Part shown: piece after piece, positions 16,933 to 63,209 of the stretch
Layout of the letters: every line of letters begins with the position of its first letter
Numbering within the stretch: the first letter of the stretch is position 1
Assembly (NCBI RefSeq): GCF_023065955.2
Contig: NW_026622985.1
Span: 456,001 to 520,000, forward strand
Direction: 5' to 3'
Origin: Ursus arctos
Taxonomy: Eukaryota; Chordata; Mammalia; Carnivora; Ursidae
Length of the DNA: 64,000 bases
The notes under the pieces: model-generated
Database searches by the model: none
What the model was told of the DNA's origin: nothing
The model's input: only the letters and a program-made list of their open reading frames with translations
Position numbers and translations under genes: made by a program

Positions 16933-17057
16933 CCAATCACCGCTTGGGGGTGGAGCTACGTCTCTGTGGGCGGTCCCAGAGTTGCAGCGGGTTGCAGACC
17001 TGGGGCAGAAGAAGGGGCACTGGGGGAGAGAGAGTTGCCCTGCGGAGGTCCGGGCTG
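16933..17057 (+). promoter_or_regulatory. Candidate promoter and non-coding first exon (copy 1)
   Basis: A GC-rich stretch has a CCAAT box (gaccaatcaccgc, 16931-16943), GC-box-like sequences (gggggtggagc and gggcggtccc), then about 90 bases ending cgggctg with a consensus donor gtgagtgagc at 17058. There is no TATA box. This is the layout of a housekeeping or zinc-finger-type first exon. No coding continuation was found and the long frames across it look like composition effects. Repeated unchanged at 29510-29634. Confidence 0.4.
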
Positions 17058-27440: not shown

Positions 27441-27444
27441 GCCC

Positions 27445-28441
27445 ATACTCAGGCAACCCTGTTTGGGTAGAGTTTCCGTGTCCCCTGCGAGGGGGGATGG
27501 GGGTGGGCACGCTGTGAGCCGGTATTTCCAGGCTTTTGTTCCCTGGCGGCTTTCTCTGGCGGTCTGCTGTGCCTCTTCTGAGAGTCAGAGCAGCAGAGGC
27601 TGAATTGTCACAGAACAGAGGGACTGCGGCCCATTCTCCACCGATGTTCTGGCCACTTTAACTCCGTTACTGTTGGTGCTGCTCAACCCTGTAGCGTCCC
27701 GGGATGTGCGCCCCACACCCGGCGTCCCCGCCCTCACTTCCAGGGCAGGCCCGTCTCTGTCCTTTGTGTTTCTAATGCCGCCAGCCGCCAGCCGCCAGCC
27801 GCCAGCCGCCCCCGCGTGCTCCCGGATCTCCCGGTCTCAGTCTGGATCCCGTGAGCACACCAGGATTCCGGAGTTCTGAGAGAAGCCTGGTGGCGCGCAC
27901 ACCCGGTTCAGGGTCTCAGTCTGCTGTTTCGCGGGTGCCGACCGCGAGTCCGCCCGCTCCCCCGTGCAGGTGGCCTGCCAGCTGCCAGCTGCCCCGCATG
28001 CGCTCCGGGAGCTCCCGGTCTCAGTCTGGATCCCGTGAGCACACGGGATTCCCGGGTTCCGCGAGATGCCTGGTGGCGCGCGCTCCCGGCTCACCGGTCT
28101 CAGTCCGCTCTCTCGCGGGTGCCCTCTGTGAGTCCGCCTGCTCCCCCCCCTCCCCCCCCCCCCCCCCCCCCCGTGCAGGTGGCTGCCGCTTCCCGGCGCC
28201 CGAACGCGGCGGCTCCCTCCCCCTTCCGTTTATCTTCCGATATCTGTGCCCGGTTTCATGGCTCCCCGCTTTGTACCTCAATACTCAGCACTGGAGATGT
28301 TCATTTGTAGAGATCCAGATGTATCTTCCTGCGTCTCAGGCTGATTCCGTGGTTGTTTAGGCTGGTCTGGTACCTATCCAGCTCGACTCAGGGGACCTGT
28401 GAAAAAGGGGTCCCCTACTCCTCCGCCATCTTAACTCCTCT
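27445..28441 (-). promoter_or_regulatory. Detached LINE-1 5'UTR carried in copy 2
   Basis: Copy of the L1-A CpG-rich leader without any ORF1 or ORF2 downstream on the minus strand. If still active as an internal promoter it would transcribe leftwards into 27.4 kb and beyond. Confidence 0.6.
28143..28172. repeat. Expanded poly(C) tract
   Basis: C8-T-C21 here, against C12 at 15586-15597 in copy 1. It is the largest difference between the two duplication copies. Long C tracts are prone to slippage and to sequencing or assembly error. Confidence 0.9.
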
Positions 28442-29509
28442 CTTGTACCTGAAATAGTATTTAAAAACACTCAGCTCAGCCTCTTCTACAAAGTGAGCCA
28501 ATGCTTATAAACATGGCTAAAATATTCCCTTACCGACGATGACTTCCCAGCCATCGTAGTGTTTAACTGGTATGACTGTGACTTACATTAGTCAACATTT
28601 GCAGAGAAAGAACTTAGTGCATCCAGGGGGGCACTTCATGTTGAAAGTAGTTTGTGACAACGAGCTACTGTGTTTTATACTGCAGTCCAAGGGAATGGTG
28701 CCAGACATCTCTAAGGTGTCTAGCAGTTCTACAATTCTGATTTTAAGTGGTCTGCGTGCTTCAGAGATTTGGGCAGGAGAAGGGCAGGAGTCCAGAGACT
28801 GTGAACACTTCTGTTACCTGTGCTGACCATGGAGCAGGTAGCCTTCTGTGGGCATCATTTTGATTTCTTGGTACTCTTGTGAAAGGTGCTTTTGTCTCAA
28901 ATTCCTCCATTTAGGAGTAATTATAATGATAAAAGTAATGTTTATCTTATATCATCTGTGGGCCCTGATCCTGGGCTCCCAGGGAAGCTATCCTTTAACA
29001 TTTTACCCGGCTCAAAATGACTGGGCAAAACCTCAAAGCATGGGCCCTATTTCTGCCCCAAGCACATGTTGTACATCTGTTTCGAGAAGAAAACAATAAC
29101 CAAAAATGCCAACATGAAGATAAGAAAAAATAAAGAACCTCTTTGGCTCCCATAAGGTTAAAGTCATACTGACATGTACATACTGAAAATGCATGAAATC
29201 ATTGCATGTCCTAAAGCCCAAGCCTTGGAGGGTCTGAGAGCCACTGACCTTGCCCAGAACCAGGCACACCCCAGCAGGGAGGGCTGGTGCAGAAAGGGAA
29301 GGGGCAGGACGCTGAGGGTGGTCTGCAGCTAGAGGGGTCCCTGGAAGGGGCCAGGTGTGTGGGGGGGAGCCCGGCCCACGACCCCACCCATGCCTGTGCT
29401 GGGTGTTGAGTAGAGGAGGCACCTCTTGGACCCCCTGCACTTTCAGGGTTCCAGGGGCTTGAGGGCGGGTTGCCCGGCATCCAAGGGGCTAGGGCACCAC
29501 CCTCCCCGA

Positions 29510-29634
29510 CCAATCACCGCTTGGGGGTGGAGCTACGTCTCTGTGGGCGGTCCCAGAGTTGCAGCGGGTTGCAGACCTGGGGCAGAAGAAGGGGCACTGG
29601 GGGAGAGAGAGTTGCCCTGCGGAGGTCCGGGCTG
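29510..29634 (+). promoter_or_regulatory. Candidate promoter and non-coding first exon (copy 2)
   Basis: Exact repeat of the element at 16933-17057: CCAAT box at 29510-29514, GC boxes, and the gtgagt donor at 29635. Being an unaltered duplicate it would provide a second start site in the same orientation. Confidence 0.4.
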
Positions 29635-31252
29635 GTGAGTGAGCAGCATGCCCCGGGGTGGGGGTCGGGGGGTAGGGTGCGCCCCAGGTGGGAGGCAGGA
29701 TTCTGGAAGGGCACGTGGAGAGGGTTCATTGTGGGGACTCAGGTGAGTTTTCTTTTTCCCTTTAAAGTCTCTTCCGCCCCATGTCCTCAACTGGCCTTAT
29801 TCCCCATACCCGTGAACTCCAGGGCGCCCACTCACCTGAGCTTTTGTGGGATGGGTTGCAGAATTTCAGGGTTTCCCCTGTTCCCCGGGAAGAGTGCGGG
29901 TAAGGACCTCACAGAATCCCCACCTTCAGTGGGGTGTCCCCCGGTTCTCTGACACAGTGCAGGTGATGCATCTTGAGCAGTACCCCGAGTTCAGCGGGGT
30001 GTGCCCTGGTCCCCCAGGCACAGGGGTGGCAGTAGCAAGCCCCAGAGCCGTCCCCCAACTTCAGCATTATGCCCCGTGTGCCCCCGAGTTAGTGGTAATT
30101 GGCTGTTAGAATCATGCAGGATTCATGCAGGTGGGGGCCCGGAGGCGGGCGTAAACCAGACCCCACTCTAGTTGCATTGGGAATAGACGAATTGAGGGTT
30201 TCTTTAGAAGAGTAAGTCTGCTTTCCAGAAAAGGCAAGGTCATTGGTCTATTGAGAATGAAGATAATTACTGCTAAACAACAAGTATGTGTTGCCCCTTC
30301 GTCCAGAAACCGAAGCAGGTGTGCAGGCTTTAGGTCAGAGGTGCCTTCTTCTCCCCAGCTGACAGCACTTCTCTGCTCTGGCTCCATGAGACCCGAGGTT
30401 TTGAACGTCAGCATCTGAGTCAGGGAGGCAGCTTGTCACAGGACGCCAGTGTTCAGAGAAAACACAGCTATTTTGGCATAATGTCCTATCTATGTCAGGA
30501 CTGGAGGTAAAACCTCTCATTATCCCCAAACCTCCTGGGCTTTTCTCTTTTCTCTAGTTGAGCCACAAAGTAAAATTGAAGTAGCTGTCAGCATTCTGGG
30601 TTTGGTGCAAGAATTACTTAGTTTCCCTGCAGGTAGAACTTTGCAGGGGATCACAATTTCTCTGTCCATTTATTGCTTACAAATGTATTTTGACTATCTG
30701 TTTCCTAGGAACCCTCTTTTATTAGAAAGGGAAGGTGAGATTCACTCTGTGCCTGTTTGTAACATCTAATTTGTTCCTTCATCTAGCAATGTTTATTCAA
30801 TTGGGCCTAAGATATGGTTGAGTGGCCAGCATCTAGAGTTAGATGGCTTTTTTTCATCTGATACAGACTTGGATGATGTCATTTGACAAAGGTGATGTTT
30901 CATCATTGATTAGTTTATTCATCAGAAGAGTTAAAATTAGGGTGGAGGGAAAATTCAAAATTATCCAAATGGGCCTGTTCCTGTTTAAAAGTTGAGCTTG
31001 ACTTTCTAGTTTTACTATTATCTCGATATTTTGAGGTGCCATATTCTGTCTGTAGTTTCTTTGGTGGTGGAGTCAGAAGGAGAGTCTGGGAATTCTTTTG
31101 GAGAGTGGCATGCTGGTGGCTTCAAGGGGCTTGGCGTCAGGAGCCTTGGGGTGAATTCCGCAACTGCTTGCCTGACCCTGGGTGCATCTCACAGAGGTTT
31201 TGTTTCCTCTTATGAAATTGCCAGCAGATAATGTTCTGCTTAAAGGGGAACC

Positions 31253-31965
31253 CTCCCATCCTGGTGGTGGGAATGCAGAGTGGTGCAGACAGTCTGGGAA
31301 ACAGTGTGGGGGTTCCTCAAAAAGTTAAACATTGAACAACCACATGATCCAGCAATTGCTTTCCTGGGTGCTTACCCAAAAGATACAAAAATGCACATTC
31401 GAAGGGGGTACGTGCACCATGATGTTTATAGCAACAATGTCCACAGAGGCCAAACTATGGAGAGAATCCCAAAGTCCATGCACTGATGAATGGATAAAGC
31501 AGATGTGGGATACGTGTATATATGTATATATGTGTGTGTGTGTGTGTGTATGTATATATATATATATATATAGATATGGGAATATGACCCAGCTTCAAAA
31601 AGAATGAAATCTTACCATTTGCAAGGATGTGGATGGATCTAGAGTGTATTAAGCTAAGCAAAATTAGTGAGGAAAGACAAATATCCTATGCTCTCACGCT
31701 TGTGGAATTTCAGAAAGAAAACAGATGAACAGAGTTGAGGGGTGATGAGAGAGGCAAACAAGGAAATAGACTCAACCTTGGAGAACAAACTGAGTGTTGC
31801 TGCAGGACAGGGGCGTGGGGGGAAGAGTTAAATGGGTGAGGGGTATTAAGGAGGGCGCTTGTGATGAGCACTGGGTACTGTATGCAGGTGAGGAATCACT
31901 AAATCCTACCCCTGAAGCGAATATTCCATGGCATGTGAACTAACTGGAATTTAAGTAAAAGAAGA
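31253..31965 (+). mobile_element. LINE-1 3'-end fragment (duplicated, copy 2)
   Basis: Same L1 3' end as at 18676-19388, carried along by the segmental duplication. Confidence 0.85.
31515..31577. repeat. (TA)(TG)(TA) compound microsatellite, copy 2
   Basis: Duplicate of 18938-19000 with the same visible structure. Confidence 0.9.
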
Positions 31966-32606
31966 AAGGAAAAAGTGTTCTGCTTCATGAAGAGTGAGGT
32001 AAAATTGTAGTGATTTGGGCTGTACTGTTCTATAGATGATAGTTGTAAAACACCCTGTTGTAAGATACACTAGTTTCTTATCACATAAGGAGTCCTCAGA
32101 AAGCTGCAAGGAAAGATTCAGATCTCAGAGCATGTTCATGTTCCACTGATATGTTACAGTTTGCACAGGTAGGACAGAAGGAGAGAAAGGCAACAGAAGG
32201 GGAAAGTAGGTGTGAACCTTTCATTAGTTAGCATTATAGCTTTCTCATGAAAGCCTTGCGCCAGTGTGATTTTGCAAGAAGAGGGGGAATCCGGGAGCTT
32301 TGCTGGAGACGGGGGAGTTCCAGGTCTGGGTAAAGCTGACAGGGGTCCCAGAGGAGAGCTGAATGCATTCTGCAGCAGGGTGTGGGCAGGGTGGGCTCCA
32401 GGGGTGGCTGTGGGTCTCCTGTGTGAGAGTTGTGACAGGTGAGGGCTGTGTGCAAGTTCCTGGCTGAGGACAAGTGAGGCACAGGTGGAGAGCTGGCAGA
32501 AAACCTTTTTCTGGGCCACCAGCCTCACCCAACACACACAGCCTCACCTTCTGTCCCTGTCACTCCAATTCAGACTTCTCAGAAGGCGAGTGAGAACACA
32601 TCAAGA

Positions 32607-33037
32607 GCATTCTAAACAGAAGGGAAAGCAAGTGCAAAGGCTCTGGGGCAGGAGAATTCCAGATATGTCCAGGAGCAGCAAGAAGGCCCTGTGGCCACAG
32701 GGGACAGCTTAGGACATGACCTCAGAGAGGTGACAGAGGGTGACAGAAAGCCATTCCAGGGCTATAACCCCATGAGACCCTGTTGCACTAGGCCATCGTG
32801 GCTACAGTGTTGAGAACAGATGACAGAGGGTTGAAGATGGCAAGGCAGGTCAATGACGAAGCTTTTCCAGGAACTCAGGCACTGTGGACCAGACAGGTGG
32901 CCTTGGATGGAGTGGTTAGACCTATTCTGGGTCCATTTTGAAGATGGAGCTCACAGGATTTGCTGATGAGTTAGATATTAGGAGCAGGAGAACGGAGGAA
33001 TTGGGGTAACTCCCAGCTGTTGTGGGTTGTCCTGATC
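32607..33037 (+). mobile_element. Ancient mammalian interspersed repeat (family uncertain), copy 2
   Basis: Duplicate of 20030-20460; one A-to-G difference is seen (gacgaagc against gacaaagc). Confidence 0.45.
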
Positions 33038-34360
33038 GAGGGGAAGGAGAGGGTTTCTGGGGGTAGGAGGTAGTCCGTGTTCCGCATGCTGAGGAAGGTG
33101 CCTTTCCCGGTGGATCTGCTGAGGTTTGTGTCTGGGAGAACCTTTCACATCTCCTCCCTCAGCAATGCTCAAGTACAAGTATCCCCCAGCTTTTAAACGT
33201 TCACAGTAAGACACTTGGCTTTCTTGAAAGAACTACGTTATTACCCAGCTTCAGTAAGAGGAAGAGACCTAAAGAGGATTTCCCTCTTATGAAAAAAGGT
33301 GAACAGTGAGAATCGCGGTCAGCATCTGTTTTGGGGAGAAGCACGACAGAGGCGGCGTGCACCCCAACCAGCTCCTTCCGCTGGGAACCGCTCTCCGCAT
33401 CCAGCCACCAGCACTTTGAATTGTGTCTGTGAGCCTCTGCTGTGCTTTATCTTCATTTATGCTGGGCCTCCGTTAGAAACTTGTGTCCTGAGGCCTAAGA
33501 AAAGCCAAAGAGAAGGAATCTTGGAGTCTGAGCACACTGTCCAATTTTTCCGTGTAAATGAACGGTCATTCCTTCTTTACACCATTTCTGCTGTGCAAGG
33601 TTTCTCAGAAGCCCTGTACTTTCAAAGAGCAGGGAAACCTATACCCCATGGCTGCGGGGTTAGTTTTAGTCTCCATGCTGGACAGAACATTTCATGACTG
33701 TCGGATTTTCTCACTCAAACATTGAGACTTGGACCACCTTCACCCGTTTCTACCACCCCATCCCCGAATCTGGCACCTACCAATCTGCTCTCAGTATCTA
33801 TGCGTTCAGTATTTGTTTATTCCACGTGGAATGTACATGAGAGCATCTGGTATTTGTCTTTCTGTGTCTGAGTTACTTGGCATAAGGCCCCCAAGGTCTG
33901 TGTTTCCATGTCTGGTTATTGTGAATAATGCTGCAGTGAATGTGGGAGTGCATCTGTCTTTTTGAGGCAGTATTTTTGTGTTCTCCAAATCAATACTCAG
34001 TAGAGCCATTACTGGGTCATGTGGTAGTTGTATTTATTTTTTCAGGAACCTCCATACCGTTTGTCACAGTGGCTGCACCAATTTCCATTCCCACCAACAG
34101 CGCACAGTGTCTCCTCGTCTGCACACCCTTGACCCCACCTGGTGTCTGTCTCTGGGACAATTGCTGTTCCAACAGTTGTGAGGGGATAGCCGATTGTGGG
34201 TTTGACTGATGTTTCCCTGACGATGATTAGTGATGTCGAACAACTTTTTCTGTCTGTTGGCACCTGTGTGCCATCTTTGGACAGTATCTATTCACATATT
34301 CACCCCATTTTTTATACAGTTTTTTTTTTTTGTTTTGATTTGTATGAGTGTTGTGTGCAT

Positions 34361-36624
34361 TGATGGATCCCCTAATTTCTCTTTCTTCGGTCTCATTATT
34401 TGTGTATAGAAATGCAACTGATTTCTGAGCATTGATTTTGTATCCCACCACATTACTGAATTGCTCTATAACTTCTAATAGTTTGGGAGTGGATTCTTTT
34501 GGGTTTTCCATATAGAGTATCATGTCATCTGCGAAGAGAGACATTTTGACTTCTTCTTTGCCGATTTGGATACCTTTTATCCCTTTTTGTTGTCTGGTTG
34601 CTGTTGCAAGGGCTTCTAGTACTATGTTGAATAAAATGGCGAGAGTGGGCATTCTTGTTGTGTTCCTGATCTTAAGGGAAAGGCTTCCAGCTTTTCCCCA
34701 TTGAGAATGATATTTGCTGTAGGCTTTTTATAGATCGTTTTTATGAGATTGAGGAATGTACCCTCTATTCCTACACTCTGAAGGGTTTTAATCAGGAAAG
34801 GATGCTGTATTTTGTCAAATGCTTTTTCTGCATCTATTGAGAGAATCATATGATTTTTAAATTTTTCTTTCTGGATAAAATTTAAGACTCTGATAGATTT
34901 GCAAATGTTGAACCACCCTTGCATCCCAGGGATGAATCCCACTTGGTCATGATGGATAATCCTTTTAATGTACTGTTGGATTCTATTAGCCAGGATCTTG
35001 TTGAGGATTTTGGCGTCCATATTCATTAGGGAAATCAATCTGTAATTCTCCTTTTTGATGGGGTTTTTGCCTGATTTGGGGATCAAGGTAATATTGGCTT
35101 CATAGAATGAGTTTGGTAGCTTTCCTTCTGTTTCTGTTTTTTGAAATAGCTTTAGGAGAATAGGTATTATTTCTTCTTTGAATGTTTGGTAGAATTCCCC
35201 AGGAAAACCGTCCGGGCCTGGAGTTTTGTTTTTTGGAAGGTTGTTTTTCACTGACGCAATCTCTTCATAATTAATTGGCCTGTTTAAAAAATCAATTTCT
35301 TCCTGTTTCAGTCTTGGTAGTTTATAGGTTTCCAGGAAGGCCTCCATCTCATCCACATTGCTTAATTTATTGGCATAAAGCTGTTGATAAAAGTTTCTAA
35401 TAATCCTTCAATTTCATTGGTGTTTGTTGTGACCTCTCCTTTTTCATTCATAATTTTATTAATTTGGGTCCTTTATTCTTTTGGATAAGTCTTACCAGTG
35501 ATATGTCAATTTTATTAATTCTCTCAAAGAACCAGCTTCTAGTTCTGTTGATCTGCTCTACTGTACTCCTGGTTTCTAATTCATTGATTTCTGCTCTAAT
35601 CTTGGTCAACTGCTTCCTCAAGCGTGGATTAGGCCTGTCCCTCTGTTGCTCTTCCAGCTTCTTGAGGTGAGAATATAAAAACTGCATTTTAGATTTTTCT
35701 ATTCTTTTGAGTGAGGCTTGGATGGCTATGTATTTCCCCCTTAGGACTGCCTTTGCAGTATCCATAGGTTTTGGACCATTGTGTTTTCATTCTCATTGGT
35801 CTTCATAAATTGTTTAAATTGATTTTTGATTTCTTGGTTTATCGAATCATTCTTGAGCCAGATGATTCTTAGTCTCCAAGTGTTTGAGTTTCTTCCAAAT
35901 TTTTCCTTGTGGTTGAGTTCCAATTTTGGAGAGTTGTGGTCTGAGAATATGCAGGGAGTAATTTCAGTCTTTTGGTATCAGTTGAGACTTGTTTTGTGAC
36001 CCAGAACAGGGTCTATTCTTGAGAATGTTCCATGGGCATTAGAATAGAATGAGTATTCTTTGGTTCTGGGGTGTAGTGTTCTATATATATCTATGAGGTC
36101 CAACTCATCAAGTATGGCATTCAAAACTCTTGTTTCTTTGCTGATTTCTTGCTTAGGTGATCTATCTATTGCTGATAATGGAATGTTGAGGTCCCCTACT
36201 ATTAGCATATTTTATCTCTATGCCTCTTTATTCTGGTTAAGAGTTGGCTTGTGTATCTTGCTGCCCCCCTATTGGGGGCATATATATTTATAATTGTCAT
36301 ATCCACTTGTTGGATACATCCTTTAAGAATTATATAGTGCCCTTCTGTGTCTCTAACTATAGTCTTTAGTTTAAAATCCAATCTGTCTGATATGAGAATT
36401 GCTACCCCAGCTTTCTTTTGAGGTCCATTGGTGTGAAAGATGGTATTCCATCCCTTTACTTTCAGTCTGAATTTTTCTTTAGGTTCAAAATGAGCCTCTT
36501 GCAGACAGCAAATGGATGGTTCATGTCTTTTTATCCAATCTGCAACACTGTGGTGCTTTATGGGAGCATTTAGGCCATTTACATTGAGACTGATTATTGA
36601 GAGATATGATTTTAATGATGCCAT
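34361..36624 (-). pseudogene. LINE-1 ORF2 fragment of L1-B
   Basis: Endonuclease start at 36624 (MASLKSYLSIISLNVNGL), reverse transcriptase palm with [13 protein letters not shown] and the catalytic [10 protein letters not shown] (near 34535), then cut off at the junction with the duplicated segment. Frames change near 34640, 35360-35450, 35765, 35950 and 36205, so at least five lesions are present. No C-terminal region remains. Confidence 0.88.
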
Positions 36625-39507: not shown

Positions 39508-40015
39508 CTGCTGCAGAAGTGAGGTGGGTGGCACGCCCTGGAGCACATCTCTATCCTCCTCTCCTTGCCCACATCCCCGGTCCTGGGATCAGAATAAAAC
39601 CTGCACTTGGCTCCGTGGGCAAGAGGCCCAGGTGCAGTGGCCCGGAGACCCTTCCCGGCTGGCGGGAATTCTAGAGGCCTGTGTGAAGTCTGCTGGGTTG
39701 GCTGCACACAATGGCTGTCACGGTCCCACTGAGCTCCTGGGACCGGCCAGACCCAGGACAGAGGCTCTGAGCACCAGAGCCAGAGTCCCTGCTCCTGTCA
39801 AACCTGCTGCTCCAGCTACACAGTGATGGGCCCGCTCCCCACCTCATGGTCACGGCCCACCCTAGGTCCTCCCCTCAGGCCTGCCCGGGGCCTCCCCAGT
39901 CCTTCCAGGGCTCGGCTCTCGGGGCAAACACTGGCAGGCACGGGTGTTGGTGGGGCCGCACCTGCTGTAGAGCCCCTGTCACTCCCCTGACAGAGGAGAG
40001 GAATTTGGACAGGTT
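39508..40015. repeat. Ancient duplicated block P, copy 1
   Basis: Aligns collinearly with 61978-62473. Shared landmarks: cctgcacttggctccrtggg, gggaattctagaggcctgtg, ggtcacggcccaccct and ggcctcccc followed by agtccttccag. Diverged by roughly a fifth by eye. It may be a segmental duplication or two copies of an undescribed repeat. Confidence 0.75.
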
Positions 40016-45604: not shown

Positions 45605-48176
45605 AGTCCTGCTCTGGACACAAGTGATCCACCCGACAGAGTCCATTATCAGGAAAGATCGGTTTCTTGTGAGACATCTATTCTTTGGAGGAGCGATTGC
45701 CTCATACACTCTTCCTTTCCTGTTGCTTCCCCACCTCCTTTGGGCTCTTGATTGGTGCCCTGTGGAAGGTCTCCCTGCCACGCCAAACCTCAGGTGGAAT
45801 CTATTCCCTATGGAAAGCACCTGCCTCGACTCTTGATTTCCCTCACAAGACACATAACACAGTCTCATCCTTTTTCTTGGCTTTGTGGGGGAAAAATGAT
45901 ACTACTAATGTGTGTCTTAACCTTTTGATATGGAAAAGGATGTGGCTACCCCAGAGTGCAAAAACAAAATTAAAGTCTTCAAAAATCACAATGCCCCCTA
46001 TGTCTGGTCTTGCTTATTTCCCTCCTTACAACATTTTTACTGATTCACTGCTTAATGATCGTGAGACAAGGTCTCTCTTATAGGCATCATTAATTGAGTC
46101 CTGAGTTCGATGTTCAGGACAGATTTCTGTGGGAAGGTTTATTGACTGTGGAAAGAGCAGAGATAAGCCACTGAAATGCAGAAGGAATATGTGGGCCTCT
46201 TCTATGTCCAGGCTCTGCATTCTGACCAGTGGCTGAATTTGTTTTTTCTCTCCAATGGGTATGACCTCAGATGTAGATACACCCAATGACAACCTCATGG
46301 TTTCTGCTACCCTGAGGAGTGTCCAAAGTGGGCATTCGGTTCAGATAGAATCCGAAAGAGGTGCTGAGAGGTTCAGCTACACAACTGGCATCATGGACTC
46401 CCCTTGGTTGCCCTCTGGCCACCCTACTGGGAAGTAGATCTGGGGAACATGCAAAGAATAGATGTGGGCATTTGCAAAGAATCTGTTCACTAACTCAGGA
46501 ATTTCCAACTGCCTGCAAAACTTGGATTCTGGATTGTGGATTTGAGAAATAGAAAGCCCTCATTTATTTATTGGCACTGGGCCTAGGGCTGCTCTTTTCA
46601 TGGACCCCAAGTTCTACCTAGTGGGGATCATCCTGGGTGTGGATATTTAAAACCTTTCATTTTCTAACGTCAGCGTTGTGTCCTGGATGAATTCCTAACC
46701 TTGTGACCAGGTTTACCAAAGCAGTACTTTACCAAAGTAAAGGGGTTGTTTTATGCCATTATTTTCTGGGGCCTGACCTCACGAATCTGAGATCATGACC
46801 TGAGCCAAAATTCAGGGTCCAAGGATTCACCAGGTTCCCCAACTACAAACACTTTTTTACCATGTATTGTAGTTGCTTGGTTAAGTCCATGGCACTCGGT
46901 TTTATTCTAAAAAGTTTCCTTCTTTATGTATATTTGGAGCTTGTTCCTTCCGTTTCCATTGCTACTTTTCACGAACAGATCAAAATCCTGTGTCTATTGA
47001 GTGCCCATCCATGAGCCAGAACACACACTGAACCCTGCATTTTGGGGAGTATTTAAAATACTTCATTTAGAAAAGTACTAGTTGTATGTATTGCCCTCAA
47101 CCCGTTCACTATTACAGAAATGCAGTGGTGAAAATACAGTGATATTTCCTCCCTCATTATTCAGGGAAGAGTCTGCTTTACATACGCATACTGACCAAGA
47201 AATTCACAAAGGTTGAGAGGTAACTAAGTACGTCCTCTCAGCTATACACAGAGAAAAATCAGGTAGTATGCATAGATGGTGAGAGAATGACATAATTTCA
47301 TTAGTATATGCTTAGAGAAATATGATTTGAAGAATGGAATTTCTGTGAACACTGCTCTTCATTTCATCTGGGACCCATTTTAAACTTTGTTCTAGAAATG
47401 TCTGGTGACTCCGGAGGATAGAATGGGTGGGGATGGTGTTTTAAATCAAGAGTGGGACCTCTATTTATTCTCAATCTGTTTTTCTTTTCCCTCTTCACCC
47501 TGAAGTTTGGCTAGTGACTCTATTTGGGGGGGGGGTGGCAGGTCATCCCCCCTCATGTCGTTTATTTTCAAAAAAAAAAAAAAGAGTGAGAATGTGTGAG
47601 ACTGGGGTTCAACTTTTGAAACAAAGCGTTTACTCTACCATGCCCCCCTTGTCTGTGAAGACAGGCCCCTGTTGACACCAGAAGTTGGCCACTGTGCAGC
47701 TGCATTGACTCTGAAACGTCTATGATGACACTGTCGCCATGGTGACTTGAGCCACACCTCTGCTGTCCTTTCCAGCTGGGACTCTTTGAGCTGCCCCATT
47801 CCTGCGGATTGGTGTTTGCTCTGCTGCTCCAACTCAGAATGGGAAATTGCTGTGGTTCCTGCTGTGGTTCCTGCTGTGGTTCCTGCTGTGATGATATGTT
47901 CATAATGATCTTCTGAATGCTGTTTGCTATCACTCAGTTAACTCTTTCTCAAACCATTTTTCTCATCATTGAAAATTTCCTCTCTCCCAATTTCATCTAC
48001 ATATGTTTTATAGTTTTGTTTTATCGCTTGATTTCTACTGTTGGCGGTTCTACTGAGCTAGCAGCCTTGGTTTTTGTCCTCCATGGAGAACAATGGACTA
48101 CTTCCTATGATATCCTGCACCCCTCATTTGTCACCCCTAGGTTCTCAAGGGGGGAAAATACGGCAGTGTCTATGTT
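45605..48176. other. Intergenic; old repeat scraps, no gene supported
   Basis: Contains a decayed reverse SINE head near 46775-46845 (gatcatgacctgagccaaaa), an A-run near 47571, a G-run near 47527 and a 12-bp tandem repeat at 47841-47886. Short open frames such as 46255-46437 show no domain. Confidence 0.45.
47841..47886. repeat. 12-bp tandem repeat, about 3.5 copies
   Basis: Unit gctgtggttcct repeated without error. On the minus strand it reads as QEPQ-type tetrapeptides inside a 121-codon open frame (47568-47933), with no other support for coding. Confidence 0.9.
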
Positions 48177-48380: not shown

Positions 48381-49378
48381 CTCGTTTAAGTTTTTTTAAG
48401 CATCCTAAATTCTATATTCACATTATGCATTTCTGAAATTTAGAGTGAACCCAGAAAGGTTGATATGATTGTTTTCTCAGTGTCTTACAGTGTCTGCCCT
48501 GTACCATTCATCCCCAAAGGGGTATGGATTTCAGGATTTGGGGGACATGTGGGTTCGTTCCTATCAACAGTTGCCCCAAAGAAATCCTCAGAATATGAGA
48601 GTCTACATTTCAATTTATGACCCCCAAACACACATTTCCATTTCTAAGAACTTTGGGTGTTATCCAAAATGACATTTTCTAGAGATTTCAATGGTATGCT
48701 ACCACCCGTCCCATTCAGCGCCTCAGACGCAAGTATGGTGACAATAGCATGACCTTTTTTTCTCGGTGACGCAATGAATAGCCGGTCTTTAATATATGGT
48801 GAAAGATGGGTAACTGGTTAATGGATCGAGTTAGTGAGTGATCGATAACCAAGTACACAGATTATTAGTGATGCACAAAGAAAAATAGGTGATGTAGACA
48901 CAATAACAGAGACACACACATTATATATATATAAGTATATATGTATATATAGATGATTGCATACATTTGCACATAGGATTGTAGCTTGAAAACAGAACGT
49001 GTCTACATTAAAGTGGTTTTGATGTAATGTGTTTCTTAGTTCTCCTGAACTTTCATCCAGATATCTTCCCAAAAGCTAAGCTATGTTGTTTTTTTTCTAT
49101 GAGTTGACAAGGGTCTCAGGAACTCCTAGTTTGTTTGGAGGCACTTCTATTTGTGTGAGGAATAAATAATGCAAGATGGCATTGTTTCACATGTTTGAAA
49201 ACACAAGACTTTGTAACAGTGACCCTCCCTTCCTTTACACTGGGATTCATCTCATTTGATCTGCTGACCTTAAGACAGGCAACTGGAACATTCTAGAGAA
49301 CAGTCATGGATATTTGTGGACAAGGGCCCCAGAGAGTGGATTCAGGGAGACAGCAATAGATTTGCTCGTTTGCTTTTT

Positions 49379-49395
49379 GTTGTTGTTGCTGCTGC

Positions 49396-49433
<38 letters not shown>
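49379..49433. repeat. (TTG)n microsatellite with internal GCT units
   Basis: About 18 trinucleotide units, two or three reading gct. It is absent from the partner block at 55-57 kb. Confidence 0.95.
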
Positions 49434-49505
49434 GCCTCTGATTCTGTCCAAAAGAAATCGTGTTGGGTTAAAATGCTTGTATTTAGGCAAAGCAGCTGTG
49501 TGTCA

Positions 49506-49610
49506 CAGAGCAATGGTCTGGGAACTCAGACTCCCAGATTTGAATCCAGCTCTGGAACTTTTGAAATTGTGAGATCTCAAACAAGAGCTAGACCCTCTAA
49601 TTCACCTTTC
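49506..49610 (+). mobile_element. MIR-like SINE
   Basis: agagcaatggtctgggaact, cagatttgaatccagctctg and a decayed remainder match MIR 5'-core wording. The related piece in block Q copy 2 is near 55980-56090. Confidence 0.6.
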
Positions 49611-50388
49611 TGACCACGTGACAGGTGTTCATTCATTCAATGCTCATCACACACTTATGCGATGATTTGTTTCCTTTCCCTATTCCTCAGGTGGAGGAAT
49701 GGAGGCACAGAGATGAATGTGACCAGGTTCATGAACTCCTCTAAGTAAAGGAGCCAGGAGGTGAACCCAGGCCTGCAATCCAGTGCTCATGCTCTAACTA
49801 CTGAACCGAACTGCACTTATGACTCAGCCATGGGATCAGTAGTTACTGTGCAAAGAAGCTTTAGCATCTGCGTGGATGTCAGGAATTCCCTGAGCCAAGG
49901 GGAATCCCAAACACTGTTTGTCATTATGAGGTCAGCTCGGTGGTCACATAGTCCAGGGAAGCTCTTGAGCCATAGAAGTCCAGATCTTGCCATAGTCATT
50001 CATCTGAAAAGAACATAGAAAGCCTGGTCCTTTTGAAGCCATGATTGTGTTCAGTTCAAAGATTCTGAGGGTTTGGAGGCACCATTTAGGACAAGCCAGT
50101 CAAACTCTGTTTGAACGCTGGACTACTCCTCAGCACCTGACCTCAATCTGGTCAGAATGGAGGAGACCCTTTCATGGTATTTGATGGCATTGTCAGTATG
50201 AGTAAGCCCTAGTCATGCCGAAATCCTGTGAGCTTAGGGACACTCCTGGGACAAGGAAAAATAAGACTCAAAGAACCAGTTCATGATTAACCTTCTGTCC
50301 AGAGCTGGTCAGTGCCTGGCCAATCAGTGTCATGGCATGGTCACTCTTCAGGGCATGGCACAAATAGAATAAGAATAGGGAGCATGCT

Positions 50389-52330: not shown

Positions 52331-52660
52331 ATGAACCCTAAGACCTTCCTAAAGCCCTCTCTGACTCAGGTGGCTGTGCTAGGCAAATGATGAACCATGG
52401 GATCAAAAGTTTGAACTCTGATGAACTTATCACTCCTTTTCCTATGGTCTTCTGATAGCAAGATGTCAACAGCTCTTTCTGTTGTCATGCATTTCCCATG
52501 GTCTCTGAGAAAACAAAAAACAAAAGTGAAGAAAACATCCATATTTTCTCTAGGTCTCTGGAAGCTGGCCAGGAGAATAAAACCGAAGGTTCACCCCACT
52601 TTCTGACCCTGTCGAAGGTACCGTGGAAATGCATTCATTAAGTTGATTCAAGAATAATTA

Positions 52661-54999: not shown

Positions 55000-56890
55000 T
55001 GGACAGTGATTGCCATGATCCTTGCATGTGGAGCCCTCTACTTTTGTCTTCATGTGCCTTCAATCTCCCTTCTCCTGAAATGTGTCTTGACTTCAAGATA
55101 TTTGGGCACATGCTGCTTCCATTCATATAACCAGGTCTCCAAAAACAGCCAAGAAGCCTGTGTCTAGATGTCAGCTTACATAGCAAAACACACGTTTTCT
55201 TTGACATTCCACCTTTTACATTGGCTGTTATCCTAAGTTAGAGGTTTACAGAAATATCAGCCATATGCTTTCACTCAATGTGTTACCCTCCCAGAGGTAT
55301 GGACTAGTGAAAATAGAGAATATATGTGTCTTTACATATATCCATTGAGTATCCAGCCTTTCACACACAATGACAGACCAAGAAACCCATTGACTGAGCT
55401 GGATAGATACGCACGTACATAGGGAGTTAGTAACATAGAAAAAAGAAAAGGTAATGTTTTGAGATGAAGAGACATATGAATTTCTGTATGTAGACAATTG
55501 CATCCTTGTGCACATAGAGCTCCAGCTTTAGAAAAGCACGAGCCTCTATTCATGTGGTTGTGAGGTAATGCACAGGTCAGGTCCCCTGAGAATGCATCCA
55601 GCATGCTGTTCAAAGGCGAAGCTCTGGTCATTCGCATGACTGGGCAGCAGGTCTTAGCTTGAGGTGCTCACATGTAGGAGGAGGAAATCACACAAGATGA
55701 TAGAGTTTCACACGTTGTAGAACACAAGTATGTTAGGTACATAAGCTCTCTCTCCCACCAGTAAACTGGTGTTCGTCATGTTGGACCAGATAGCTGTCAG
55801 GTCAGGCAACTAATTCATTCTGGAAGCATCATGCACATTATTTTGGGAAATGGCCACTTAGTGTGTCCTCAGGCAGTCAGCAAAAGCATTTCTGAGACCT
55901 TTATGTGACTCCTTAAACACTGGGTCTGGCTTAACATAAAGGAGTCCTTTTTAGACAAAGCAGGTACCTATCGTGGAGAAAGCACTGGCCTGGGAGCTTG
56001 GACAGCAGAGTTTGACTACAGCTCTGAGTTTTGTGAAGTTATGGCATCTCAGATGAGACATTTCACCTCCAAGGAACCTTCCTGAGCATTTCCACGGCAT
56101 GCTTTACTTACACTAACCATTCAACCCTCACCACCAATGCAGTACTTTGCTTGCTAAGGGCACTCTTCAGATGGAGAAACTGAGGCACAGAGCTGAATGC
56201 AGCCAAGCACACAAGCTCTTAAGTGGAAATGCCAAAATGTTCACCCAGGTGGCTGGGCCCATGCTGCTACTCTGAGATACTGAACTGCACTTACCACACT
56301 GACAAGCATAGCTCTGAGCCATGGGTTCAACAGAAACCATGCAGGATCTTTCCAAGGCCTGTGTATATATCTGAACTGCATGAGTCTACAGAGATCCCAA
56401 GTACTGTCTACCATCATGAGGTGGCCTCAGTGGTCACATGGAGGGCAGACTTGGGCATAGCCCTTAGTGTGAAAGCACACAGAAGGTCCAAACTGTCTGT
56501 CCAGCTCACAGATTTTGAGACTTGAAGCACAACATTGAAAAACCTGGTAAATCTCTCTCAGTGTTGGTTCACTTCTCAGAGGCTGGCCCCAAACGGGAAT
56601 CAAGAGATAGTTTAGTGCTCTTTGATTGTGTGATCACCCTGAGCCCCAGAAAGCCTCCAGTGCTGGCAATGACACACCCAAGCAACAAGGACAAATAAGA
56701 ACTCCAAGTAACATTTGGTTACTAACCCAGGGTCCACTCTTTTTCCTGCACCTCTCTCACAGAGCTGGGGTAGAGGACGTCGGGAGGAACCCAGGCCTCC
56801 CACTGTAAAGGACCATCCCATTAGTGGATGACTACTGCTAGCACGGAGAGCCACCCGACTCAGTGAACACATACATGAGACACACACTGG
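55000..56890. repeat. Ancient duplicated block Q, copy 2
   Basis: Partner of 48440-50800. It carries the same order of landmarks, including the cacaagatga/ttcacacgttg segment (55692-55717; compare 49170-49196), a MIR-like patch near 55990, and the gaggtggcctcag then tggtcacat segment near 56419. It shows no coding feature I can defend. Confidence 0.65.
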
Positions 56891-57315: not shown

Positions 57316-57545
57316 CTTCAGCAGCCTCAGTGTGTTCTCTAGATATATGGGAATATGACTCAACTGTTGAAGGACTCAAATCTTGTCATTGGCAAGTGCA
57401 TGCTGTTAAACCAACCACATCCCTCACCAACCCCCCCCTTCAGCAGCCCTCAGTTTGTAATATAGATACACTGTAAATTACTCAACCATCAGAAGGAATC
57501 AAATCTTGCCATTGGCAACTGCATGCTGTTTAACCAACCACATCC
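57316..57545. repeat. Tandem duplication, two units of about 115 bp
   Basis: Each unit runs from cttcagcagcc through tcaaatcttg and cattggcaa to tgcatgctgtt and aaccaaccacatcc. Unit 1 is 57316-57424, unit 2 about 57431-57545. The text derives partly from an L1 3' end. It lies just upstream of the exon-module array. Confidence 0.8.
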
Positions 57546-57638
57546 ATCTCCACTGTTCTGTCGTTCAAGTCAAGCAGAGCACTCTGAGTCATTCATGAGA
57601 TAGAGCACCGTGGCAGGAAGGTACTCTGTGTCCTCTAG

Positions 57639-57700
57639 TCTGTCTCCCATTTGGATGGCCAGTTGGAGGAGCTTCGTCCTGGCAGAACAAATAGAGAGAC
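57639..57700 (+). pseudogene. Relic A-type exon (module 0)
   Basis: The diagnostic acceptor of the downstream A exons, tactctgtgtcct then ctag, occurs at 57622-57638. Read in the same phase (two bases completing a codon), the sequence stays open for 17 codons to a TAG, but no good donor is present and no B exon follows before module 1. It looks like a fourth, decayed or unused copy. Confidence 0.4.
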
Positions 57701-58021: not shown

Positions 58022-58074
58022 AGTCTACCAAGGAGGACCTTGGCAAGAAAGCACTGTGGCCCAACACATCCAGG
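58022..58074 (+). CDS. Exon A1 (53 nt, phase 1 to 0)
   Basis: Acceptor tactctgtgtccttttag, donor gtaagc at 58075. After two bases that finish a codon it reads STKEDLGKKALWPNTSR, a lysine-rich peptide with a potential N-glycosylation motif NTS. It is the shortest of the A exons, and its splice signals are the best conserved in the module. Confidence 0.55.
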
Positions 58075-58484
58075 GTAAGCTTGGCTGTCTTTGCCTGAGA
58101 AAGAAATGTTTCTTACTTGAGTTTCATCTTTTTGAAGTGAGTTCAGCTATGACAACATGACAGTGTAGTTTTTAGACGTGAGGTACCATTTTCTTGGGGT
58201 GTTGGGAGGGAAGGTTGTAAACTGTGTGGTAGGGGACCTTTTACTCAGAAGTGGTTTTTCCTCCCTGAATTAAGAGTTTTGTGATTGTGCTTCAGGGAAT
58301 TTGAGAGATTCATCCCCCAGGAAAAGCTCATGCCTTTTCCACAGGTGCACGCTGTGCTTCCTTTCCAGGCCTTTGTCTTTCCTGCTGATTCTCATTTGGT
58401 TTTCAGTAGTCACCAAGAGAACCAGTGATGACAGAGTATGCATATGACCTGACTCTCAGGGTGTGTTCTTTTCTGTAAATGCAG

Positions 58485-58509
58485 GTGGCCCCAGAACCAT
58501 GTGGAAGTG
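58485..58509 (+). CDS. Exon B1 (25 nt, phase 0 to 1)
   Basis: Acceptor ttttctgtaaatgcag, donor gtacgt at 58510. Codes VAPEPCGS plus one base (G) that pairs with AT of exon A2 to give Asp. Same length as B2 and B3. Confidence 0.55.
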
Positions 58510-58778
58510 GTACGTATTCTGGAATCAGTCCCTTGCTGAGGAAAAACTCTAGATGGTAAGGCAGGTGGGGGGATGTCCTCACTGTCCTCAGTCTGGAGAG
58601 CCATCTGATTCCAGGTTCCTGGTAGGACTGAGGCTTGGGAGTGTGGGGAAAAGCAAACTCCAGGTGAGAAACTATGTGCATGTGTCTCCAGTCCTAGGAA
58701 ACCAATGCATTCCCCCTGGGTGGTGTGGGTGTATGTGCATGAGGCTTGGGGGTTAGTGTCTTGTGTAGTGTGATTGTG

Positions 58779-58891
58779 AGTGTGTGTGTGTGTGTGTTTG
58801 TGAGAGAGAGAGAGAGAGAGAGCAAGAGAAAGAGAGACAAAGACAGAGACACAGAAAGAGAGAAGACAGAAAGATAGAGAGAGAGAGAGAA
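58779..58891. repeat. (TG)n followed by (AG)n, module 1 intron
   Basis: TG run to about 58800 and then impure AG/ACAG repeats. The equivalent intron position in modules 2 and 3 carries different repeats. Confidence 0.9.
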
Positions 58892-59133
58892 ACATGTTTC
58901 TCCAGAAGATATGTCAGACAGATACTGCATGATATCACCCTTCTCCAAAGCCATGTTATCACACTGTGCACTTTAGAGCCTTACTGCAGTGGGTGGCCCA
59001 GCAGGGGCACTTCAGTCCATGCTTGGAAACCAGGTGGCTCCATACACCCCAGCCTCATGTCCATATCAAGCAACATTCCATGAATATTCTTGAGCAACAA
59101 GAGGAATGTGCTGACGGGTACTCTGTGTCCTAG

Positions 59134-59198
59134 ATGCCTTGGAGGAAGACATCGATCCCATCAAAGGAGACAGCGCCGGAGGCACACCTCTCGCCATG
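59134..59198 (+). CDS. Exon A2 (65 nt, phase 1 to 0)
   Basis: Acceptor tactctgtgtcctag, donor gtgagc at 59199. Codes ALEEDIDPIKGDSAGG then TPLAM: acidic, 12 nt (four codons) longer than A1. Its first three bases read ATG, but the phase of the joined frame makes this Asp-Ala and not a start. Confidence 0.58.
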
Positions 59199-59680
59199 GT
59201 GAGCTAGAAGTTCTTTGTCCCAGGAACAGATGTTGCTTTCTTGGTTTCTTTCAAATCAAATTCAGATGAAAATCAGACAATGTATATTTGAGATTATACA
59301 TATAGATCTCATACAATTTTCCTTTTTGAGAGAGCATTGAGTGGTTGTCTCTGCCAACCGTTAGCTGATTTGAGAGGACATTTACCATTGGTGACACCAA
59401 ACTTGGTTCTAAATGCTGTGTTAGGATCCTGTCCCTCAGTAACACTTTCTCCTGCTTGGATGAAGCATTTTGTAGTCACCGTCCTGAATGGACTGGACAG
59501 ACATGTCCCCCAGGAAAAACAACTTCCTAAGGCATCCAGTTCACTTACTTTGGGGTCGTTGGACTCAACCACTGTGCTCCATCTGGGTTCCTAAAGTCAT
59601 TGAGGGAAATAAAGCTCATGAAGACAGACAGTGTATAACATGACCTGAGCCTCGCAGTGTCCTCTTTTCTGTACCTGCAG

Positions 59681-59705
59681 GTGACACCATCAACCAGCGA
59701 GAGCA
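59681..59705 (+). CDS. Exon B2 (25 nt, phase 0 to 1)
   Basis: Acceptor cttttctgtacctgcag, donor gtatgt at 59706. Codes VTPSTSES, a Ser/Thr/Pro-rich octapeptide that could carry O-glycans if the protein is secreted or on the surface. Confidence 0.58.
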
Positions 59706-60122
59706 GTATGTATTCTGGAATCAGCGTCTTCCTGAGATAAAACTCTAGATGTTAATGCAGGTGGGGCATCCTTGCAATCCTCAGTCTGGCGAGCCACCCT
59801 GATTGGTTTGTGGGGGTGTGGGGCACCAGAGATTTCCCAGGTGAAAAAGTGTGCCCATGTGTCTACAGTCCTAGGAAGCCATTGTATTCCCTGTGTGTGG
59901 TGTGGGTGTGTGTGCATGAGGCTTGGGGTTGGGGTGTCTTTTATGACTCTATGTGGTGTGATTGTGAGTGTGTGATTTTGTGTGGGAGACAGGGAGAGAC
60001 AGACACAGACAGAGAGATGCAGAGAGGGAGAGGGAGAGATGGAAAGAGTGAGAGAGAGATTGCATATGTCTCCAGGAGGTGTATCCCACTGCCACTGCAC
60101 AATTCCCATTGTCCACATTCTC

Positions 60123-60178
60123 AAAGAAAGAAAGAAAGAAAGAAAGAAAGAAACAAACAAACAAACAAACAAACAAAA
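60123..60178. repeat. (AAAG)n(AAAC)n microsatellite, module 2 intron
   Basis: About seven aaag units, then six aaac units, directly after attctc. Confidence 0.93.
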
Positions 60179-60332
60179 GAAAAGACGAGATAAAGAAATC
60201 TCATCACAGCGCTCACATTATAGCCCTATTACCGGGGGAGACCCAGTGGTGGCGTTCAGCCCATGCCTGGGAACCAAATGCCTCCATAGGCTCTAACCCC
60301 ATTCATAGCGAGCAATACTCCCTGAGGCATTC

Positions 60333-60524
60333 TTTTTTTTAAAAAGATTTTATTTATTTGAGAGAGAGCGAGTGAGAGCACAAACAAGTGAGAGGGGCAG
60401 AGGGAGAGAGAAAAGCAGACCCTCGCTGAGCAGGAAGCCCCATCCGGGACTTGATCCCAGGACCCTGAGGTCCTGTCTTGAGATGAAGGCAGATGGTTCA
60501 CCAATTGAGCCACCCAGGAGCCCC
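60333..60524 (-). mobile_element. tRNA-Lys-derived carnivore SINE in module 3
   Basis: Reverse SINE: ttttttttaaaaagatttta, GA-rich body, gacttgatcccaggaccctg, gccacccaggagcccc. Modules 1 and 2 lack it, so it post-dates the module duplication. Confidence 0.93.
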
Positions 60525-60585
60525 TCCCCGCATCTTTCTTGAGCAGCACCACCAATACACTGACAGGTACTCTGTGTCCTTCTAG

Positions 60586-60662
60586 ACGTGACTGATGATG
60601 GCGCTGTCTGGTCATGGCTTTTTCAGAGGATCACAGAGGAGGAGGGCCTGCCTCTTGCCAAG
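60586..60662 (+). CDS. Exon A3 (77 nt, phase 1 to 0)
   Basis: Acceptor tactctgtgtccttctag, donor gtgagc at 60663. Begins NVT (Asn formed across the junction, a potential N-glycosylation site), then DDGAVWSWLFQR, ITEEEGLPLAK. Twelve nt longer than A2. Only its end (EEEGLPLAK) recalls A2 (GGTPLAM). Confidence 0.58.
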
Positions 60663-61255
60663 GTGAGCTCGCCTGTCTATCCCCGAGGAACAAATGTTGC
60701 TTTCTGGGTTTCTTTCCAATCAAATTCAGATGAAATTCAGACAGTATACTCTGTGTTGGCGAATTGAACATAATACTAAAACAAAAATCATTTTCCTAAT
60801 GTCAACTGCTTGTATATGGAAATGAAATTATTTTTATATACAGATTTTATGTAAAAAGCTATATATACTTTTGAGATTATACATATGTAATTTCCCCGAT
60901 GGGGAGAGCATTGAGTGGTTGTCTCTTGCCAACCGTTAGCTGATTCGAGAAGACATTTACCATTGGTGACACCAAACCTGGTTCTAAACGCTGTGTTAGG
61001 ATCCTGTCCCTCAGTAACACTTTCTCCTGCTTGGATGAAGCATTTTGTAGTCACGGTCCTGAATGGACTGGACAGACATGTCCCCCAGGAAAAACAACTT
61101 CCTAAGGCATCCAGTTCACTTACTTTGGGGTCGTTGGACTCAACCACTGTGTTCCATCTGGGTTCCTAAAGTCATTGGGGGAAATAAAGCTCACGCAGAC
61201 AGACATTGTGTAGCATGACCTGAGCCTCACTGTGTCCTCTTTTCTGTACCTGCAG

Positions 61256-61280
61256 GTGACAGCACCATCCATTGAATGTA
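61256..61280 (+). CDS. Exon B3 (25 nt, phase 0 to 1)
   Basis: Acceptor cttttctgtacctgcag, donor gtacgt at 61281. Codes VTAPSIEC plus one base (A). Hand count gives 8 mismatches to B2 in 25 bases, against 3 in the 116 bases that follow the donor. Confidence 0.58.
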
Positions 61281-61696
61281 GTACGTATTCTGGAATCAGC
61301 CTCTTCCTGAGACAAAACTCTAGATGTTAATGCAGGTGGGGCATCCTTGCAATCCTCAGTCTGGCGAGCCACCCTGATTGGTTTGTGGGGGTGTGGTGGA
61401 CAGGAGATTTCCCAGGTGAAAAAGTGTGTCCATGTGTCTACAGTCCTAGGAAGCCATTGTATTCCCTGTGTGTGGTGTGGGTGTGTGTGCGTGAGGCTTG
61501 GGGTTGGGGTGTCTTGTGGCTCTATGTTGTATGATTGTTTGTGTTTTTGTGTGGGAGACAGGGAGAGTCAGACACAGAAACAGAGATGCAGAGAGGGAGA
61601 GGCAGAGATGGAAAGAGCGAGAGAGATTGCATATTTCTCCAGGAGGTGTATCCCACTGCCACTGCACAATGGCCATTGTCCACATTCAAAAAAAAT

Positions 61697-61742
61697 GAAG
61701 GAAGGAAGGAAGGAAGGAAGGAAGGAAGGAAGGAAGGAAGGA

Positions 61743-61806
<64 letters not shown>

Positions 61807-61829
61807 AAGAAAGAAAAAAGAAAAGAAAA
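61697..61829. repeat. (AAGG)n(AAAG)n(AG)n microsatellite, module 3 intron
   Basis: About eleven gaag units, then about thirteen aaag units, a GA run and impure A/G. At the same intron position as the AAAG/AAAC tract of module 2. Confidence 0.93.
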
Positions 61830-61977
61830 GACGAGATAAAGAAATCTCGTCACAGGGCACACATTATAGCCCTATTACCGCAGGAGGCCAAGCGGTGGCC
61901 CTCAGCTCATTCCTGGGAACCAAATGCCTCCATATGCTCTAACCCTATTCATAGCGAGCAATACTCCCCGAGTCATT

Positions 61978-62473
61978 CTGCTGCAGAGGTGAAGTGAGAG
62001 GTACATCCTGGAGTACATTTCTCTCTTCTCCTCACCACATCCATTATACTGGGACCAGAGCAAGACCTGCACTTGGCTCCATGGGAGAGAGGCTCATATG
62101 CAGCTGCCTGGAGACCCTCCTTGGCTGACGGGAATTCTAGAGGCCTGTGTGATGGCTGCTGGGCTGGCAGCACACACTGGCTCTCACTGTCCCTCTGAGC
62201 TGGTCTCTTGGGGCTGACTGGGCCCAGGACAGAGGCTCTGGGAAGTGGGGCCAGGGTCTTTGCTCCTGTCAGATCCCACTGACAGCGATGGGCCTGGTCC
62301 CCACATCGTGGTCACGGCCCACCCTCGGACCTTCCATCCATCTGCTCGGGGCCTCCCCTAGTCCTTCCAGGTCTCAGGGACTTTGGTGAACACTGCAGGT
62401 ACTGGTGTTTATGTGGCCACACCAGCTGGAGATTGCCCGTCACCCCACTGACAGACTAGGGGAATTCGGACAA
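61978..62473. repeat. Ancient duplicated block P, copy 2
   Basis: Partner of 39508-40015 in the same orientation, joined directly to the truncated fourth exon module. Begins ctgctgcagaggtgaag. Confidence 0.75.
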
Positions 62474-63135
62474 GTACCATTACCTCTATTGTCACATTCA
62501 TCTCCTCTCTGGGCTAGGACACTTACGGGCTGTCATCAATAGGAAGTGTGTCTCAAGTGCCCAAGATGAGCCCAGGCATCGGCAGTCACTTGATTGCCCA
62601 GTTGATGGTCACTCTCATGGCCCAGCATCACCCCAGGCCCATGGCAGCCGCCTCCATGTTAGCTGCATTGGCTCATTGATCAACTGATTGACTAGGGAGC
62701 GTGTCAGTAAACCCATGATTGTTCCTCCACTGTTCCCATTGCAGAGAACAGTCTGGTTGTTGGAGGTGACAGGAGAAGGGAAATAAGAAATTAATGATGC
62801 AGGGAGAGAGGAGGGAGGGTAGCAGGAGGGAGCAGAGGAAGGTAGGAAATCATGGGGACAGAAAGTCATGGGCACCACTGTGGCTGCTTCTTGAAAGAAT
62901 GGGCTGACAGGCACTGCTTCCTGGTCCCAGTTATGAAATCTGAGGGCTGGGAAGGGCCCAGAGACCCTGGACGCCTTTCTCATCAGTGAGGTAAAGGGAT
63001 CACGGCCCCATGGGTGGTGAGGTGGGGGGACTGCGGAGCTGAGGGCAGCATTGAGTTTTGGGGTTGGGGACATAATCCCAGGGGCAGTGGCCTGAGTCCT
63101 CACTTCACCCTGATTGTCCCCTTTCCTTTCCCAAG
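62474..63135. other. Putative last intron / intergenic DNA
   Basis: No repeat recognised except MIR-like wording at 62935-63000. An acceptor-like cttcctggtcccag at 62930 is followed by an interval with TGA in the needed frame, so I did not accept an exon there. Confidence 0.4.
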
Positions 63136-63209
63136 ACCAGGCCATGACGATGCTCACTGTCGTCCGTAAGGAAGACGACTTCGCAGGTTGCGAAGACTCG
63201 GACCCATAG
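63136..63209 (+). CDS. Predicted terminal coding exon
   Basis: A strong polypyrimidine acceptor, tgtcccctttcctttcccaag, precedes 63136. Its phase matches the outgoing phase of B3: A plus AC makes Asn, followed by QAMTMLTVVRKEDDFAGC and EDSDP, then TAG at 63207-63209. The tail is acidic. It is not part of the tandem module. Confidence rests on phase compatibility, acceptor strength and an in-frame stop shortly after. Confidence 0.5.

Follow-up and report, generated by a model that had tools for sequence, protein, structure and literature searches.

The 64,000-nucleotide (nt) stretch of brown bear (Ursus arctos) DNA analysed here (contig NW_026622985.1, positions 456,001 to 520,000 of the forward strand; hereafter the window) very probably carries one member of a family of about 40 loci built from variable numbers of two-exon modules. 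Damage at the 5′ end probably makes the copy in the window a pseudogene, the introns around the B exons of two module types appear to be homogenised, and the product may be tethered to a membrane. A family gene is composed of exon 1, exon 2, module 1, a variable number of further modules, and a terminal exon, T. Many of the loci are positioned within a few megabases (Mb) of contig ends. The original prediction had described three modules and the terminal exon of a single gene.

Each module comprises an A exon and a B exon. All exons in the window are on the forward strand. Module 1 is formed by A1 (58022–58074, 53 nt) and B1 (58485–58509, 25 nt), module 2 by A2 (59134–59198, 65 nt) and B2 (59681–59705, 25 nt; certain other copies have 24, 28 or 31 nt), and module 3 by A3 (60586–60662, 77 nt) and B3 (61256–61280, 25 nt). 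The terminal exon (63136–63209, 74 nt) ends with TAG. As originally predicted, the seven exons join in one frame of 113 codons followed by TAG; each of the other frames contains several stops across the joined exons. The combined lengths of A and B exons are 78, 90, and 102 nt, also as predicted, with introns in phase 1 at the module boundaries and in phase 0 between A and B. Since the modules begin and end in phase 1, their addition or loss in frame is possible, and other loci contain 2 to at least 18 modules. All exon boundaries from A1 to T have the canonical AG and GT dinucleotides that had been claimed for them. By splice-matrix scores, the acceptors and the donors both rank between the 83rd and 99.8th percentile of all AGs and GTs, respectively, in the window. 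The lowest-scoring sites are the A2 acceptor and the donors of B2 and B3, and the remainder are mostly strong.

The predicted gene model proved incomplete, since two 5′ exons had been overlooked. Splice and hydrophobicity scores failed to reveal any 5′ exon, and the N-termini of NCBI bear proteins later placed both. Exon 1 (47839–47893, 55 nt) reads MGNCCGSCCGSCCGSCCD, and exon 2 occupies positions 52554–52617 (64 nt). The donor of exon 1 is ATATGT in the window copy, whereas it is GTATGT in the copies on contigs C237 and C293. Exon 2 of the window contains one extra T, which causes a frameshift and a stop; in C237 and C293 the T is absent and the exon is 63 nt long. The changed donor and the extra T make it probable that the 5′ end of the window copy is that of a pseudogene. 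In a genome search with exact patterns, which leaves sites with other differences uncounted, the exon 1 end with the intact GT donor was found at 38 sites and that with AT at four (two on C225, one of which is the window, and one each on C15 and C307). Reversed control patterns gave no matches. An alternative first exon might spare the window copy from being a pseudogene, as the starts of two of the bear proteins, P0003 and P0004, differ. The window copy has the module peptides and the constant tail QAMTM..EDSDP of the family but neither an intact MGNCC exon 1 nor an in-frame exon 2. It thus belongs to the family by descent, but probably not by function.

The picture of a lone gene did not hold, as about 40 related loci were found in the brown bear genome (2.42 gigabases in 362 contigs). 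The mention of bears in the original prediction thus fits this genome. With 161 bases surrounding B2 as the query, 287 first-look candidates were obtained; the T exon gave 50 and the A1-B1-A2 block 569. All 40 candidates scored in each search matched: at 90–100% for B2, at 95–100% for T, and at 92% or more for the block, except for one at 84%. The number of loci is approximate because the candidates beyond those scored are unverified. On the 20 contigs over 20 Mb with a known length, no placed copy is farther than 7.4 Mb from a contig end, and for 17 of these contigs the greatest distance is 3.6 Mb. This is a raw count, outside which stand the copies on C290, C307, C92, C270, C59, C181, and C192, and on small contigs such as C323, C34, and C56. 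The block shared with stretches of C237 corresponds to positions 34362 to 62724 of the window, with gaps, and reaches position 64000 in several other copies. A scan of viral contigs with family patterns gave no matches, and four matching stretches in microbial genome bins were taken as chance.

Loci that were read through from A1 to T have A1-B1 first, then further modules, and a single T last. Three A-B pairs were parsed in the window as well as in eight further loci (L022, L023, L025–L028, L030, and L032), of which L032 has a fourth B-type profile match beside its three pairs. Two pairs were parsed in L024 and L029, in which the A2 acceptor is lost (TAG to TGG). One locus on C248, which spans three adjoining stretches, contains 18 A-B pairs in unbroken alternation before T; one of these stretches, L016, includes 200 N (masked or unknown bases). 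The parsing of the window and 19 of 22 other genomic stretches gave 163 A and B exons, whereas none were parsed in the remaining three stretches scanned, L014, L015, and L034. A exons are 53, 65, or 77 nt long and B exons 25, 28, or 31 nt, apart from two of 24 nt. The parser demands recognisable splice motifs, and exons with broken motifs, two of which are known (A2 of L024 and L029), are outside the 163. The A2 donor of L045 is off-consensus, yet still GT. The window, L023, L026, L028, L030, and L032, that is six of the ten A1-bearing loci analysed, are open from A1 to T. The A and B types have been recombined: A2 is paired with a B exon of type 3g in 16 modules, and A3 with B2 in one (L016–L021, L031, and L033).

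Five relatives are already known, as uncharacterized Ursus arctos proteins in NCBI (P0001–P0005, from LOC123001741, LOC113249954, LOC125283080, LOC125282191, and LOC113249559). A first protein search with the short peptide returned three candidates, none with an E-value of 10 or better; it was a later protein search that found the five relatives, together with one ENA protein. All five share modules and tail with the window copy, and none was seen to be its own product. In the family proteins an MGNCC start precedes a basic stretch; modules, numbering from 2 to at least 18, follow, and the constant tail comes last. P0001, whose N-terminus is MGNCCGSCCGFCCGSCCDGLRKLARRIKPKVHPTSDSVEE, P0002, and P0005 begin with MGNCCG, and so have the Met-Gly start of N-myristoylated proteins. 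P0001 and P0002 contain nine modules and P0005 six. An AlphaFold model of P0005, built from five sequences, has a mean predicted local distance difference test (pLDDT) score of 43.5 and a single helix, residues 11–22. P0005 may therefore be disordered, although the shallow alignment also lowers the confidence of the model. The MG start and the cysteines suggest lipid anchoring. A plausible, if tentative, reading is that the protein is held at the cytoplasmic face of a membrane by an N-terminal glycine- and cysteine-rich lipid anchor and the basic stretch, and carries a disordered tail with a length that depends on the number of modules. A further search added three ENA proteins, giving four in total (P0006–P0009), from contigs of 506–645 bases. 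They contain an A3-like exon with SV in place of RI and hint that the family exists in another source. In P0006 there is a further match, to the repeat that lies upstream of A3. The protein searches found no other named species; they were limited by length and shared words, with 8000 candidates scored in the last one.

In module types 2 and 3, the B exons appear to have been kept distinct within homogenised introns. In consensus sequences of the 25-nt exon forms, module types 2/2 and 2/3g (A type/B type) differ at 10 of 25 B sites and at 2 of 230 flank sites (p = 7e-10), and types 2/2 and 3/3v at 8 of 25 and 3 of 230 (p = 4e-7). The gapped mean divergence between types 2/2 and 3/3g is 0.34 in B, against 0.045 and 0.037 in the adjoining 60 bases on each side and 0.033 in the middle of the intron. 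B2 and B3 of the window are identical at 17 of 25 positions, and their flanks at 54 of 60 and 57 of 60. Segmental duplication together with unequal exchange may account for the spread of modules and whole loci. The introns around B in types 2 and 3 would be kept alike by gene conversion or unequal crossing-over, with the B types coexisting. The most economical reason for the distinct B exons would be past selection against conversions that erase the differences between exons, as argued for the primate L/M opsin genes. Those genes provide the best parallel that was found. In a gibbon study, their exons are reported to be more divergent between paralogues than their introns, which is read as gene conversion of introns opposed by selection on exons (PMC3213168). 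Exons that exceed their adjacent introns in divergence, synonymous sites included, were found in the bear family for the B exons of types 2 and 3, but not for the A exons or module 1. Furthermore, the opsins, as described there, are two receptor genes, whereas the bear family comprises dozens of loci with many small modules (PMC3213168).

Several observations weigh against this reading of the introns and of the product. Beyond 60 bases past B, the divergence between types 2/2 and 3/3g rises to 0.099, and some pairs of types reach 0.10. The island is not general: between modules 1 and 2 the B exons differ by 0.31, and module 1 has no B-exon contrast because its introns have diverged too (0.14–0.27). 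For types 2 and 3, divergence in the A exons is 0.25, only somewhat above that of their flanks (0.17–0.18). Homogenisation within single loci is weakly borne out. Flanks of different B types differ by 0.026 within a locus and by 0.037 between loci, and flanks of the same B type from different loci by 0.023; in loci with three modules, the corresponding differences for the same three classes are 0.053, 0.050, and 0.042. The lipid anchoring is a reading of the sequence alone.

It is possible, but doubtful, that the loci form a living family of the bear lineage, with dozens of loci near chromosome ends encoding membrane-tethered, disordered proteins of variable length, and with selection separating micro-exon types of 8 to 10 residues amid continually homogenised introns. 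That the family is instead dying or was never functional is an alternative that we hold to be rather unlikely. Segmental duplication would then have copied an old gene fragment, the copies would be young, their open frames a leftover, and the NCBI models mere predictions. The protein model, of low confidence and mostly unstructured, would be expected in this case, as would the double damage at the 5′ end of the window copy. Four of the ten A1-bearing loci are broken between A1 and T: L024 and L029 by the loss of the A2 acceptor, L025 by two bases missing from the start of T, and L027 by a 24-nt B2. The last B exon of L031, a stretch without its A1, also has 24 nt. There is, moreover, no overall purifying selection among exons of one module type. 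They contain 30 synonymous and 56 nonsynonymous changes, whereas 23 and 51 are expected from the flank rates (p = 0.48). This test included exons of the commonest length located at least 60 bases from the end of a stretch (12 A1, 49 A2, 26 A3, 19 B1, 19/30 B2, 33/34 B3g, 8 B3v, and 11 T), and left out the near-identical window relatives L001, L003, L004, and L005. No stops were found within types, whereas about 2.7 are expected (p = 0.06). A1 leans towards constraint (8 synonymous, 6 nonsynonymous), and B1 (1 and 9) and A2 (5 and 17) towards amino acid change, but these subsets were chosen post hoc and no claim is made from them. Other findings speak against a dying family. In the A flanks and the A-B intron, type 1 is about 0.18–0.27 diverged from types 2 and 3, and in the A flanks the latter two are 0.17–0.19 apart, yet the parsed exons of each type keep frame and phase. 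The exon 1 donor is kept at 38 genomic sites and changed at four, and the divergence island seen for types 2 and 3 ends at the borders of the B exon.

The differences among B exons could also have been caused by strong positive selection on amino acids and not by homogenisation of the introns, which we regard as rather unlikely. The excess of nonsynonymous over synonymous changes within B1 and A2 favours such selection, and so does the proportion of nonsynonymous differences (pN), which is above that of synonymous ones (pS) for B2/B3g and B3v/B3g. For B2/B3v, however, pS is above pN, and synonymous sites between B2, B3v, and B3g are raised as well (pS of 0.15–0.47, from one to three synonymous differences each); the 24 nt per exon are too few to decide. 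It is very unlikely that the exons belong to a non-coding spliced transcript that is open by chance. Their change within types is near neutral, but none of the 163 parsed exons contains a stop codon, and their lengths vary in steps of three in all but two. In three of the five NCBI proteins (P0001, P0002, and P0005) an ATG exon runs in frame into exon 2 and A1. The tandem arrays at several loci, with units of about 1.3–1.6 kilobases (kb), resemble those of a satellite, or of a mobile element, carrying exon-like motifs. Such an origin is improbable in the extreme, since there is a single terminal exon in each of the 11 other stretches that contain T, and C237 and C293, the two copies read to that distance, have some 20 kb of upstream region in common.

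The original prediction could not assign the peptide to a known family, and searches of Pfam, NCBIfam, and the Protein Data Bank (PDB) yielded no accepted match either. Pfam had no match to the 113-residue peptide or to four frames of the window, and Rfam none at gathering thresholds. The Rv1893-like Pfam family reached 28.1 bits on P0001, just above its cut-off of 27 (E = 1.7e-6), and was dismissed as a chance likeness multiplied by the repeats, as were the remaining Pfam and the NCBIfam matches to bear proteins, all of which are under cut-off. An ankyrin repeat-containing protein and designed ones were matched in the PDB with E-values of 6e-5 at best and 0.0074 in other searches. They were rejected because each stretch is a weak likeness that is repeated; no ankyrin family was found in Pfam for six proteins. 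Repeat helices are not seen in the AlphaFold model, which is itself of low confidence. A literature search for the five locus names, alone or with Ursus arctos, found no paper, and publications on gene family expansion in bears, judged by titles and the starts of abstracts, included none on this family.

Other features of the window surround the modules. A module remnant on the forward strand (57521–57643), identified by a profile match and by reading the sequence, has an A-type upstream flank and acceptor but no usable exon downstream. A profile match on the same strand at 61860–62004 corresponds to the upstream flank of one more module, present as a truncated remnant. An interspersed repeat (60335–60525, forward strand), which we take to be a short interspersed nuclear element, lies in the B2-A3 intron and was detected by self-comparison and split profile matches. 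The same flank is split in a like manner in type 3 modules of six stretches. A stretch of 6.9 kb is present twice (14885–21786 and 27442–34361, 99.5% identical) and is a recent local duplication. An older duplication with about 58% identity links the first intron (48481–50301) to the second (55045–56736), and no exons were seen in it by eye. A repeat of 0.5 kb with 76% identity is located at 39508–40014 and at 61978–62475, the latter in the last intron before T.

Human NBPF/Olduvai and similar modules are in-frame, tandem two-exon units of variable copy number that spread by segmental duplication. The bear family resembles them in layout and differs from them in its micro-exons and its cysteine-rich N-terminal start. 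Schistosome micro-exon genes have tiny symmetrical coding exons and partly unstructured products, and encode largely secreted parasite proteins (PMC4671649). The tiny symmetrical exons and the partly unstructured products are shared with the bear family, again as a likeness of layout. The absence of a name for the five listed bear relatives indicates a blind spot. The junction test suggested originally can now target loci whose exon 1 donor is intact, such as the copies on C237 and C293. If the reading given here is true, a mammalian family with such copy number, variation of modules, and islands of divergence at B exons would be a natural case of module diversity set against gene conversion.

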